Positions 1-32,625 of a stretch of DNA of 32,733 bases are shown here, in pieces (within the stretch, counting starts at the first letter, position 1; every line of letters starts with the position of its first letter). This DNA comes from Ruminococcus sp. (GTDB taxonomy: Bacteria; Bacillota; Clostridia; Oscillospirales; Ruminococcaceae), in contig JAFUAO010000096.1 in the NCBI GenBank assembly GCA_017460665.1, positions 1-32,733 of the forward strand, read 5' to 3'. The notes below the pieces were generated by a model. The model was not told where the DNA came from. It saw nothing but the letters and a program-made list of their open reading frames with translations, and ran no database searches. The position numbers and the translations under genes were made by a program.

Positions 1-165
1 CCTCTTCCAAAACAGTCCACTGGACTGTTTTGGAATTCACCCCTTGCAGATGCGCCTTCGTTTTTATTTCGCTTTTCTCTAAAAGCTGTGAAAAGCGAGC
101 AGAGGCTCCGCCTCTGGACTCCGGCAGGGAGCGAGCGGCTCCCTGCACCCCGCAATTATTTTTCC
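1..165 (+). repeat. Modular four-hairpin intergenic element, copy 1
   Basis: Four hairpins occur in order. A has 14-bp arms at 5-18/22-35 around AACAGTCC/GGACTGTT. A linker follows at 36-61. B is at 70-97 (CGCTTTTC/GAAAAGCG). C is at 100-116 (CAGAGGC/GCCTCTG). D is at 124-146 (GCAGGGAGC/GCTCCCTGC), followed by ACCCCGCAATTATT. A second copy lies on the minus strand at 5591-5747 with the same order, linker, D hairpin and tail, but with different B and C stems that are still self-complementary. No convincing gene is present: the open frame here is just the translated repeat. The element may continue left of the window. Confidence 0.8.
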
Positions 166-169
166 GTCG

Positions 170-265
170 CCGAAGGCGACCTCCCCTACATTTTTTCGTA
201 AGGCACGGACGGTGGGTGGCCGTCCCTACATAGCATCTGGGTCGATGTAGGCATCGACCCCTACG
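170..265. repeat. Short palindromic units (TGTAGGG-type), degenerate
   Basis: GTCGCC-GAA-GGCGAC is a small hairpin at 175-189. Two minus-oriented units follow, near 205-230 (GGACGG..CCGTCC then CTACA) and 239-265 (GGGTCGAT..ATCGACCC then CTACG). They match the better-preserved units at 8286-8542 and 32289-32572. Nothing else is seen between here and the recD2 promoter. Confidence 0.65.
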
Positions 266-5590: not shown

Positions 5591-5747
5591 AAAATAATTA
5601 TTGCGGGGTGCAGGGAGCCGCTCGCTCCCTGCCGGGATCCAAGGGCAGTGCCCTTGGTCGCCCTCCGCAGAGGGCGAAACTCTTCTTACGAAGGCGCATC
5701 TGCAAGGGGTGAATTGAAAAACAGTCCGGCGGACTGTTTTTCAAGAG
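5591..5747 (-). repeat. Modular four-hairpin intergenic element, copy 2 (inverted)
   Basis: Read on the minus strand the order is: hairpin A (5744-5714, perfect 14-bp arms, loop of 3), the same linker as copy 1 (5714-5688), B (5676-5659, CGCCCTC/GAGGGCG), C (5657-5639, CCAAGGGC/GCCCTTGG), D (5632-5610, GCAGGGAGC/GCTCCCTGC) and the ACCCCGCAATAATT tail. Linkers, D and tail match copy 1 closely. B and C have different sequence but keep full base pairing. Confidence 0.85.
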
Positions 5748-5777
5748 GGGACGCTCTGCAAGTGAGAGCGTCCCCTC
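5745..5777. repeat. Perfect 13-bp inverted repeat
   Basis: GAGGGGACGCTCT (5745-5757) and AGAGCGTCCCCTC (5765-5777) are exact reverse complements around a 7-nt loop. It abuts hairpin A of the modular element. It has no T-run, so it is not a standard terminator. A smaller hairpin, TTGCC/GGCAA, follows near 5800-5816. Confidence 0.8.
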
Positions 5778-5837
5778 CCACCGGTCCATTAGGTGAGCCT
5801 TGCCGCTCAGTGGCAACGAGGTATGTGTCGTCGAAGG

Positions 5838-5965
5838 AGGCCGGGCGAACGATGTTCGCGCCTACAATTTGTTTCCGGATATCCGATCGATCGGCCGGGA
5901 CGTCGAGGACGCCGTCCCCTACGATCAAACAGGTCATGTGGACGGCCAATGGCCGTCCCTACAAA
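5838..5965 (-). repeat. Three TGTAGGG-type palindromic units
   Basis: On the minus strand the units are near 5867-5840 (TGTAGG then GCGAAC..GTTCGC), 5922-5896 (GTAGGGGACGGCGT..ACGTCCCG) and 5964-5939 (TGTAGGGACGGCCATTGGCC plus CGTCC). They belong to the same family as the blocks at 8286-8542 and 32289-32572. The open frames drawn through this stretch have no family similarity that I recognise. Confidence 0.7.
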
Positions 5966-5990
5966 GAGAAACAAAAAACAAAACTGTTAC

Positions 5991-8264: not shown

Positions 8265-8545
8265 TGTCGCCTTCGGCGACGTATTTGTAGGGGCGCACAG
8301 TGTGCGCCCGTGCCTCCCCAGAAAAATGTAGGGGTCGATCCCTAACCGGGACCCGTCCCCTCTGTCAGCTTCGCTGACATCTCCCCACACTGTGGGGAGT
8401 CACCCATATCGACCCACAATGTTTTACGATGTGTAGGGACGGCCATTGGCCGTCCGTGGGACCAGAAAACGTAGGGGAGGCCGCCATCGGCCTCCCGGCC
8501 ATGTGTGAAAAACCGCCGGGCGAACGGAATTCGCCCCTACAAGAT
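8265..8545. repeat. Array of TGTAGGG-flanked palindromes
   Basis: The GTCGCC-TTC-GGCGAC hairpin is followed by units at about 8286-8313 (GGGCGCACA..TGTGCGCCC), 8327-8415 (composite, listed separately), 8431-8458 (GGACGGCC..GGCCGTCC), 8470-8498 (GGGAGGCCG..CGGCCTCCC) and, inverted, 8515-8542 (GGGCGAA..TTCGCCC). Each unit has TGTAGGG (or GTAGGG) on one side and a different self-complementary core. The 400-bp gap between dapL and the MATE gene holds only this array, the heptamer repeat, a terminator and a promoter. Confidence 0.8.
8327..8415 (+). repeat. 89-bp composite palindromic unit, copy 1
   Basis: Outer arms GGGTCGAT/ATCGACCC enclose an interior of about 70 bp that is identical at 32438-32507. 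The interior holds two hairpins, TGTCAGC-TTC-GCTGACA and CTCCCCACA-C-TGTGGGGAG. The outer arms differ from copy 2 by a compensated base pair (T-A here, G-C there). Confidence 0.85.
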
Positions 8546-8594
8546 CTCCCAAGACCGCATTTCAAAAAACACCAGGCGCATGGCCCTCCGCCAC

Positions 8595-8623
8595 TTGCAA
8601 TTTCCTTTAACATATGCTATAAT
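8595..8623 (+). promoter_or_regulatory. Sigma-A promoter of the MATE-nudC operon
   Basis: TTGCAA (8595-8600), 17-bp spacer, TATAAT (8618-8623). The stretch CACTTGCAATTTC, then ACATATG in the spacer and TATAATGATA are shared with the recD2 promoter. Confidence 0.85.
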
Positions 8624-8656
8624 GATAAATTAGTAAAAATGTTAGAAGGTAAAAAA

Positions 8657-11054: not shown

Positions 11055-11148
11055 CGGGCGCAGCGCAATTTTTCCGGCCATGGATAGGGCGTTAGCTGAC
11101 TTGCTAAGTCAGACTTGTCTTGTTATCTTACTTGCTTTGTCAAGTCAG
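11055..11148 (+). repeat. 95-bp direct repeat, copy 1, downstream of tRNA-Gln
   Basis: It is identical to 11238-11332 except for one missing A in the T/A run, with a period of about 183 bp. It contains CTGACTT-GCT-AAGTCAG and a second AAGTCAG at its end, so two hairpins compete for the same CTGACTT. The short string CGGCTAAGATC is also duplicated downstream of each copy (11183 and 11335). Confidence 0.9.
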
Positions 11149-11237
11149 CTCGACCACAATTACGCGCCGAAGCTGCCATAAACGGCTAAGATCACACCGC
11201 GATCGATACAGCTAATGGCCGCCGCTTTTTGATCAAT

Positions 11238-11332
11238 CGGGCGCAGCGCAATTATTTCCGGCCATGGATAGGGCGTTAGCTGACTTGCTAAGTCAGACTT
11301 GTCTTGTTATCTTACTTGCTTTGTCAAGTCAG
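11238..11332 (+). repeat. 95-bp direct repeat, copy 2
   Basis: Second copy of the element at 11055-11148, with the same alternative stems. It ends about 45 bp before the dCMP deaminase start. The 330-bp gap between the tRNA and the deaminase holds only these two copies and a weak promoter candidate. Confidence 0.9.
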
Positions 11333-11344
11333 GTCGGCTAAGAT
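11316..11344 (+). promoter_or_regulatory. Weak promoter candidate for dCMP deaminase
   Basis: TTGCTT (11316-11321), 17-bp spacer, TAAGAT (11339-11344). The -35 lies in the end of repeat copy 2. The match is only partial; read-through from the tRNA promoter is an alternative. Confidence 0.35.
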
Positions 11345-27081: not shown

Positions 27082-27105
27082 CGTCAGACTAATTGCATGA
27101 CATCT

Positions 27106-27218
27106 ATCTTCTCTCATCCGGACTTTTACCGTCGGCTCTGGAGTTCCACCAGATCGGCTCCCAATGGGAGTTCGTGGGCTATACCACCGGTCAGGAATCA
27201 CACCCTGCCCTGAAGATA
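27106..27218 (-). promoter_or_regulatory. FMN riboswitch (RFN element)
   Basis: Minus-strand matches to the RFN consensus occur in order: ATCTTCAGGGCAGGGTG, GACCGGTGGTATAGCCCACGA, a variable stem-loop, CCGATCTGGTG, AGCCGACGGT, AGTCCGGATG and closing GAGAAGAT, which pairs with the opening ATCTTC. It senses FMN and controls ribD and the rest of the operon through the downstream attenuator. Confidence 0.97.
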
Positions 27219-27223
27219 CATAT

Positions 27224-32284: not shown

Positions 32285-32575
32285 CTCTGTAGGGGAGGCC
32301 GCCCTCGGCCTCCCGGCTGACCGATCAGATCTCCGGAAACAAATTGTAGGGGCGAATTACGTTCGCCCGTGCCTCCCCAGAAAAATGTAGGGGCGGCCAT
32401 TGGCCGTCCGTGCCTTTCCGAACATTTGTAGGGGGCGATCCCTAACCGGGACCCGTCCCCTCTGTCAGCTTCGCTGACATCTCCCCACACTGTGGGGAGT
32501 CACCCACATCGCCCCTGCCGATTGACCGGATCTCCCGAAACAAATTGTAGGGGCGAATTCCGTTCGCCCGGCCGC
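32285..32575 (+). repeat. Array of TGTAGGG-flanked palindromes
   Basis: Units lie at about 32289-32318 (GGGAGGCCG..CGGCCTCCC), 32346-32373 (GGGCGAA..TTCGCCC), 32387-32413 (GGCGGCC..GGCCGTCC), 32427-32515 (composite, listed separately) and 32547-32572 (GGGCGAA..TTCGCCC). They are separated by recurring linkers such as GTGCCTCCCCAGAAAAATG (also at 8310) and GAAACAAATTGTAGGGGCGA (two copies here, a relative near 5865). All run in the same direction. No gene is seen from 32247 to the end of the window. Confidence 0.85.
32427..32515 (+). repeat. 89-bp composite palindromic unit, copy 2
   Basis: Outer arms GGGGCGAT/ATCGCCCC enclose the same ~70-bp interior as 8338-8407, with TGTCAGC/GCTGACA and CTCCCCACA/TGTGGGGAG hairpins. 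Confidence 0.85.
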
Positions 32576-32625
32576 TTTTTCGTGTCTCTCGTTTCGTTGA
32601 ACGTTTTCATGTGCATAAGGTCCCA

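Follow-up and report, generated by a model that had tools for sequence, protein, structure and literature searches.

The window analysed here, a 32,733 nt stretch of Ruminococcus sp. DNA, is one entire contig (G000:C80) of a 2.87 Mb draft genome. It contains two copies of a hairpin element, at positions 1–165 on the forward strand and 5591–5747 on the reverse strand, as originally predicted, and a sequence check confirmed that every stem named in that prediction is perfectly self-complementary. Clusters of GTAG palindromes (e.g. TGTAGGGACGGCCATTGGCCGTCC) also occur in the window, in both inverted and direct arrangement, and a 36 nt promoter-like stretch (CACTTGCAATTTC...TATAATGATA) is present in two copies (315–350 and 8592–8627; 86% identical), each just 3' of hairpin clusters. 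Other features are a near-perfect (99%) 82 nt direct repeat (11071–11152 and 11255–11336) that adjoins a tRNA-Gln, and an FMN riboswitch (27102–27221) beside riboflavin-synthesis-like genes, which served as an RNA control. The parts of the two element copies, with the evidence for each, are as follows.

5–35, forward strand: copy 1 hairpin A, 14 bp stem and 3 nt loop (sequence, DNA folding)
36–50, forward strand: copy 1 TTCA (36–39) and putative third-strand segment CCCCTTGCAGA (40–50) (covariation; its own hairpin Z lies beyond the contig edge)
69–98, forward strand: copy 1 hairpin B, TCGCTTTTC/GAAAAGCGA (sequence, folding)
100–123, forward strand: copy 1 hairpin C (100–116) and tail ACTCCG (118–123), the tail mirroring the 3' arm except at its first base
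124–153, forward strand: copy 1 hairpin D (124–146) and tail ACCCCGC (147–153) (sequence, folding)
154–165, forward strand: copy 1 A/T-rich right end, AATTATTTTTCC (sequence)
5800–5816, reverse strand: copy 2 extra upstream hairpin, TTGCCACTGAGCGGCAA (sequence)
5745–5777, reverse strand: copy 2 hairpin Z, GAGGGGACGCTCT-CACTTGC-AGAGCGTCCCCTC, overlooked in the original prediction (sequence)
5714–5744, reverse strand: copy 2 hairpin A (sequence, folding)
5699–5713, reverse strand: copy 2 TTCA (5713–5710) and putative third-strand segment CCCCTTGCAGA (5709–5699) (letter comparison)
5658–5677, reverse strand: copy 2 hairpin B, TCGCCCTC/GAGGGCGA (sequence, folding)
5633–5657, reverse strand: copy 2 hairpin C (5639–5657) and tail ATCCCG (5638–5633), the tail changed together with the stem by comparison with copy 1
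5603–5632, reverse strand: copy 2 hairpin D (5610–5632) and tail ACCCCGC (sequence, folding)
5591–5602, reverse strand: copy 2 A/T-rich right end (sequence)

Side-by-side alignment of copies showed that the full core begins upstream of hairpin A with hairpin Z and runs in the order Z, A, TTCA plus linker, B, C and D; copy 1 begins at the contig edge and is therefore truncated there. The layout first proposed, of four hairpins, was right in that B and C differ between the two copies yet remain paired, but it lacked hairpin Z. Hairpin A, described as common to both copies, also differs between them by compensated pairs; and hairpin D, shared by these two copies, is not universal, as other hairpins occupy its place in other copies. 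Each of B, C and D can be one of several alternative hairpins, D being GCAGGGAGC...GCTCCCTGC or CAAGCCTTTGAAAAGGCTTG in this genome and often CCAAAGG...CCTTTGG elsewhere. A hairpin of the TTGCCACTGAGCGGCAA kind lies upstream of Z in 24 of the 30 own-genome copies listed. Folded as DNA, copies 1 and 2 each scored better than all 200 dinucleotide shuffles (z −6.96 and −8.07 respectively). Other hairpin elements were found nested in the core at several loci, within the Z loop (L002, L007, L014, L019 and L020) or in other loops or between modules (L102, L105 in the loop of C, L108, L121 and L132).

BLAST returned 50 matches in the own genome, which fall into at least 40 places after merging of split hits and of reverse hits caused by palindromes; this is a lower bound as 40 of 80 candidates were scored, and copies cut by contig ends may be counted twice. 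No further copy with unpaired arms was found. Matches were present in 25 of 60 genomes (own genome included), comprising 24 of 36 from the genus and one of 24 others. Among the matches listed, contigs with the A-linker pattern were nearly all labelled Ruminococcus, Oscillospiraceae, Clostridia, Clostridiales or Bacillota, and many were of rumen or gut origin by title; the exceptions were two Streptococcus macacae contigs and two from an Alistipes MAG. Two copies with a Z hairpin (L248 and L271) are on a contig labelled Alistipes, which may reflect either transfer or a mislabelled assembly.

The outer pairs of hairpin A adopt all four Watson-Crick forms with few exceptions across 83 copies; position 5, for example, is CG in 23, GC in 19, TA in 17 and AT in 15. 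Over positions 3–7 of this hairpin, 387 of 415 cells were Watson-Crick, with five GT, eight AC and 15 others. For all detected hairpins the figures were 3848 Watson-Crick, four GT, 11 AC and 10 others in 3873 pair cells, an absolute rate flattered by arms bounded with a mismatch-stopping score, which treats GT and AC alike. The original prediction read such compensated stems as selection on structure; paired arms alone are insufficient for this, as stem pairing alone could result from copying from one arm to the other. Selection on structure is instead supported by a third strand that tracks the stems.

The strand 3' of hairpin A is a mirror of the 3' arm of Z and changes with the Z base pairs as base triples; in copy 2, CCCCTTGCAGA matches the mirrored arm at all eight tracked positions by letter comparison. 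Mutual information (MI) calculated over 62 aligned copies, with no structure assumed, had some of its strongest signals at these triples. Z pair 4-26 with linker position 70 was G-C+C in 38 copies, A-T+T in 20 and A-T+A in four; pair 10-20 with position 76 was C-G+G in 42 and T-A+A in 20; and pair 9-21 with position 75 was C-G+G in 36 and T-A+A in 20, with six others. The three triples share a constant parallel offset of 66 and were followed in 58, 62 and 56 of the 62 copies, although the copies are related and such counts are not independent events.

Hairpin Z has a lower and an upper variable zone. In the 67 of 83 copies usable for this test, the two zones were weakly linked to each other (MI 0.17 bits), whereas each covaried with its respective linker part (MI 1.15 and 1.49; neither reached in 2000 within-genome permutations). 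Some cross-linkage remained, between the upper Z zone and the lower linker part (MI 0.31; reached by 0 of 2000 permutations) and between the two linker parts (MI 0.49; 2 of 2000). With each combination counted once per genome (33 rows), the main signals persisted in a less sharp form (10 and 0 of 2000).

In a first set of 72 copies the linker equalled the mirrored 3' arm in 509 of 568 comparisons covering positions 1–5 and 9–11, against a shuffled mean of 418.4 and a maximum of 445 in 5000 shuffles. By position, matches numbered 71, 67, 69, 64 and 61 of 72 at positions 1–5, 61 of 72 at position 9, 70 of 72 at position 10 and 46 of 64 at position 11, with exceptions at positions 4 (8/72), 5 (11/72), 9 (11/72) and 11 (18/64); positions 6–8 (CGC over TGC) break the mirror rule, with one, five and three matches of 72. 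A second set, of 80 loci from named contigs with 60 usable copies, gave 400 of 460 (shuffled mean 330.6, maximum 357 of 5000); it shares at least one locus with the first (L266, apparently contig G032:C16, both of 294359 bases) and brings new Z variants, in which GGAAAATCCC occurs with CCTTTTTCGG (L265, L267), GGGGGCGCCC with CCCCCTGCGG (L262) and GGGGCACTTTTT with CCCCTGAAAAAA (L212, L281). Exceptions to the rule in this set include L216, L239, L271 and L276. Length changes are shared as well: where Z is one base shorter the linker is one shorter (L056, L100, L101 and L241), and where Z is one longer so is the linker (L263 and L274); the exceptions are five copies with a shortened Z and full-length linker, and L251 with a short linker and full Z. 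At L230, L249, L263 and other loci the linker C-tract could also pair, antiparallel, with a downstream AAGGGG before B, a partner that the window's copies lack.

Hairpin C and its tail follow the mirror rule too. The window's copies are already in step, with CAGAGGC accompanied by ACTCCG in copy 1 and CCAAGGGC by ATCCCG in copy 2, so that this strand is not simply a conserved linker, as had been supposed. Across 90 hairpins, pair 4 was G-C+C in 71, A-T+T in nine, A-T+A in eight and G-C+T in two; pair 5 was A-T+T in 80, G-C+C in nine and A-T+A in one; and pair 7 was G-C+C in 65 and A-T+T in six, with G-C+T, an exception to the rule, in 19 of 90. In total, 389 of 425 positions in 85 distinct hairpins agreed, compared with a within-genome shuffled mean of 366.5 and a maximum of 381 (5000 shuffles). 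For 119 unique other hairpins with 3 nt loops, the bases that follow had a mean mirror score of 2.48, by comparison with 1.77 for shuffled followers (sd 0.11, maximum 2.09 of 500) and 0.71 for preceding bases.

A forecast of stem and tail combinations was then evaluated in 99 genomes of the class (own genome included). GGGAC stems occurred with CCCTG in 11 cases and with CCCCG in two, and GGGGC stems with CCCTG in seven and with CCCCG in 27; the forecast held (odds ratio 21, Fisher p 1e-4), although not all matches are independent: several from a single genome seem to be copies of the same repeat, certain own-genome matches fall inside copies of the element, and two in G048 overlap. Without the own genome the counts were 7, 2, 5 and 18 (p 0.006), and the reversed patterns, as a control, gave 1, 6, 0 and 7 matches.

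Arm-to-arm copying cannot write a mirror image, and the tails must therefore be matched by selection or by a three-strand constraint; selection on a three-stranded fold is the best reading. Z and C (and also B and D, for which the evidence is weaker) each have a later strand that repeats the 3' arm in mirror order and would lie in the hairpin's major groove as a third strand. For Z this strand comes after hairpin A and would run parallel to the Z 5' arm. The lower letters agree with the pyrimidine triplex code (C·G-C and T·A-T), in which the third strand is parallel to the purine-bearing arm; the letters at upper Z agree with the purine code read on the opposite strand (G·G-C and A·A-T), with an antiparallel orientation to the purine 3' arm. 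We take this two-part fold to be what is called an alternate-strand triplex. That the strands fold together, in which molecule and to what end, we infer from this pattern.

Parallel C·G-C triplets need protonated cytosine, and the fold on the strand described here would therefore be weak at neutral pH. The lower part of Z would become a purine motif on the complementary strand; this avoids the need for protonation for that half alone. Such a motif takes T as well as A over A-T, and the nine A-T+A exceptions of hairpin C on the strand described here fit it; these few cases hint that the complementary strand may be the folding one. The codes that the element's letters match are described in the available text of PMC4666352. 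For a designed sequence with alternating purine and pyrimidine tracts, triplex formation with a peptide is described in the available part of PMC3660596. Modules B and C carry just four to five triplets, against the six required by the published definition of such motifs.

The original prediction offered a transcribed RNA as one option, and the stems disfavour it. In the FMN riboswitch control from the same genus (21 of 35 matches by 31 predicted pairs, hand-counted from the pair table) there were 28 GU, three AC and 21 other cells; RNAalifold admits GU columns, and dropping the single GU-rich one left 19 GU against one AC. The difference in wobble pairing between element and control was significant (Fisher p 3e-5). 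As they have no G·U excess, unlike the control, the element stems do not evolve via the RNA-like G·U path. Placement relative to genes was assessed with a crude ORF rule in 81 copies with enough flank and both neighbours, in which the left and right gene strands were −− in 30, +− in 28, ++ in 18 and −+ in five; six copies seemingly lie inside an ORF of at least 150 codons. Divergent gaps are thus rare, in 58 of 81 copies the gene on the right is oriented towards the element, and the co-directional classes (18 versus 30, p 0.11) show no clear strand preference. Such placement at gene ends is more in keeping with a role at the DNA level, or with harmless insertion at terminators, than with a role as RNA.

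An RNA structure such as a 3'-end stabiliser, terminator or small RNA, with the third strand forming RNA base triples, would also account for the position at gene ends and the rarity of divergent gaps. Hairpin A resembles a bidirectional terminator by eye (A-tract, GC stem, T-tract), and copy 1 folded as RNA beats its shuffles (z −6.29 on the strand described here, −3.84 on the other). According to the available text of PMC4666352, which cites others, pyrimidine-type intrastrand triplexes are possible in RNA; by the same source the purine motif needed for upper Z on the strand described here is impossible in RNA. With co-directional genes flanking the element in either orientation, no match in Rfam 15 at the gathering score and the wobble counts above, we consider an RNA unlikely.

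Evidence for mobility came from relatives. In G024 the core lies within an element of 318–320 bp with 21 bp inverted ends (CAYGGCAACAGCATTTACTTT; type 1), flanked in seven of nine distinct copies by a 10 bp target duplication at least 9/10 identical; three are deletion derivatives. In type 2 (G032, with single copies in G007, G009 and G011) the core is enclosed or bordered by the ends TCAGNYTGTCRAAAAAGT or close variants of them, adjoining hairpins that are terminator-like by eye and are repeated at the opposite side (23/23 bp in L050, 23/26 in L153 and 15 bp in L041). TCAGNYTGTCRAAAAAGT ends also bound an autonomous insertion sequence (IS) encoding a 475-amino-acid transposase that matches NF033551, IS1182 family (399 and 403 bits; cut-off 270). 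Duplications of 28/28 bp (L182) and 38/38 bp (L184) flank IS1182-type elements; in L177 and L180, where both ends were likewise seen, no flanking duplication was found. The whole terminator-like palindrome is duplicated around the elements of L182 and L184, which suggests terminators as targets. The core was found in none of the 10 loci matched by the IS1182-type transposase, four of which show both ends; the own draft genome yielded no copy of this IS gene, and neither target duplications nor transposon ends of either type were found at the window's copies. In relatives, then, the hairpin core is common to two different transposon chassis; and the proposal of a hairpin substrate for a mobilising enzyme is not supported by the copies of definable ends, all in relatives, which have terminal inverted repeats and target duplications.

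We regard the element as probably a non-autonomous mobile repeat, with moderate confidence, whose cargo would be a chain of DNA hairpins with mirror third strands for the major groove. The molecule would be single-stranded DNA exposed in replication or transcription, and our best guess is that the chain would act as a polymerase-stalling or insulating knot near gene ends. An IS1182-type transposase and another transposase would move the element through its terminal inverted repeats.

The same covariation might instead have been left by a recognition code, whether or not a full triplex forms, in which a protein (a transposase or a factor of the host) recognises the stem together with the third strand, much as hairpin, guide and cleavage site are read by HUH transposases of the IS200/IS605 family. 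Recognition through guide sequences is established for IS608. Y1_Tnp matches occur in 24 of 60 genomes, with three such matches in the own genome, which has two REP-transposase-like genes (74.1 and 59.5 bits, under the NCBIfam cut-off of 80 in each case); however, G004, G008, G011, G015 and G018 have 13–31 element BLAST matches and no Y1_Tnp, a model that may miss REP transposases. As copies with precise ends show inverted repeats and target duplications, and the stem-tail rule is valid for several unrelated hairpins, reading by a protein seems to us a rather improbable explanation.

The element might also lack function: template switching from one arm to the other would keep the arms complementary, and the linked changes would mark a few old subfamilies that transposition and recombination have spread. 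Modules are plainly shuffled among copies, some linkage between zones persists, and variable pairs such as hairpin A position 5 show all four kinds with few intermediates, as concerted copying gives. This origin is nonetheless very unlikely in our view: a mirror image is beyond the reach of copying, the Z zones are linked far more weakly to each other than to their linker partners, length changes are common to all three strands, and the rule recurs in further hairpins as well as in other families of the class. Preferring a selected three-stranded fold, we extend it tentatively, at slightly less than an even chance, to a general stem-tail grammar of Clostridia, in which mobile three-stranded DNA modules would be under selection as a selfish or insulating class independent of the carrier transposon.

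A REP/BIME cluster of GTAG-tagged palindromes, mobilised by a REP-associated tyrosine transposase, is exceedingly improbable: GTAG-tagged hairpins do crowd the element in the window (200–260, 5840–5966, 8286–8542 and 32289–32580) and stand beside many copies, but by eye the GTAG (or CGTC) tag expected at the palindrome foot is missing from Z and A in most copies (a minority, e.g. L035, L209, L212 and L255, have GTAG before Z), the ends and target duplications of definable copies are of the miniature inverted-repeat type, and copy number does not track the presence of Y1_Tnp, a model that may miss RAYTs.

The REP-transposase-like genes have a feature of their own. In 12 of the 17 loci fetched (L072, L073, L074, L076, L077, L078, L080 and L082–L086) they contain in-frame GTAG-tagged hairpins in both orientations, which read VGANIVRP, VGADIIRP, VGANCVRP or VGAHSVRP, and GRTMCAPT or GRMISAPT in the inverted copy. 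The letters of these hairpins vary between genes with palindromy kept, and many of the genes adjoin thrS, gyrB or argJ-like genes by eye.

If true, the three-stranded fold would rest on covariation in natural sequences, which to our knowledge would be the first evidence of this sort for DNA triplexes, among them an alternate-strand one. Three-way covariation over many copies is a different kind of evidence, as used for RNA tertiary structure. The existence and relevance of intrastrand triplexes in living bacteria becomes a question testable with short oligonucleotides and compensatory mutants, and a hairpin with a mirror tail is a simple search rule for other genomes. In the available text of PMC4666352 the in vivo case for triplexes rests on motif counts, biophysics, footprinting and genome comparison, and the string 'covaria' has no occurrence in its main text. 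The literature found agrees, as far as its available text extends, with the earlier statement that no named family has this layout, although the modules resemble known potential intrastrand triplexes; in that same text we did not meet an alternate-strand stem, an interposed hairpin, chaining, transposon cargo or natural three-way covariation.

Like bacterial MITEs, the copies in relatives are approximately 230–320 bp, gene-free and multicopy, with inverted repeats and target duplications, and it is in relatives alone that these repeats and duplications were found. They differ in that one internal hairpin chain lies between two sets of ends, so that the cargo is not tied to a single transposon. 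With IS1182-family elements the type-2 copies alone share the TCAGNYTGTCRAAAAAGT ends, which match those of an autonomous IS, and the position next to terminator-like hairpins, duplicated in some copies; by contrast, the interior is not derived from the IS, the hairpin core being in none of the 10 transposase-matched loci. Resemblance to the GTAG REPs and their RAYTs, as described in the available part of PMC3733652, lies in being palindromic, intergenic and mostly between unidirectional or convergent genes; stem GT pairing, cited there for transcription, is absent in the element, most copies lack the GTAG tag by eye, and a third strand does not appear in those REP descriptions.

Bacterial intrastrand triplex motifs are already known (BoxC, PIT and TM_ECO), and the kind is therefore known. 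These potential intrastrand triplex repeats, as set out in the available text of PMC4666352 (Holder et al., 2015), are the closest known system, being likewise intergenic and multicopy, with a hairpin and a third segment on the same strand that mirrors one arm. Modules C and B match in layout class III of that work (purine, pyrimidine, 3' Hoogsteen) and, on the other strand, class I. The element departs from its search settings, a homopurine/homopyrimidine stem of at least six triplets with loops of 1–6 nt, and by letter reading the window's copies do not show the BoxC/TM_ECO pattern CCCTCNCCC N3-6 GGGNGAGGG N3 GGGNGAGGG. TM_ECO is class II, homopurine, with loops of 3–6 nt, and was not found near mobile elements by the authors, according to the same available text. 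In the element, by comparison with TM_ECO, the Z stem switches from purine to pyrimidine half-way, in an alternate-strand code; approximately 37 nt, hairpin A included, separate stem and third strand; and several modules are chained, with the chain carried as transposon cargo in relatives.
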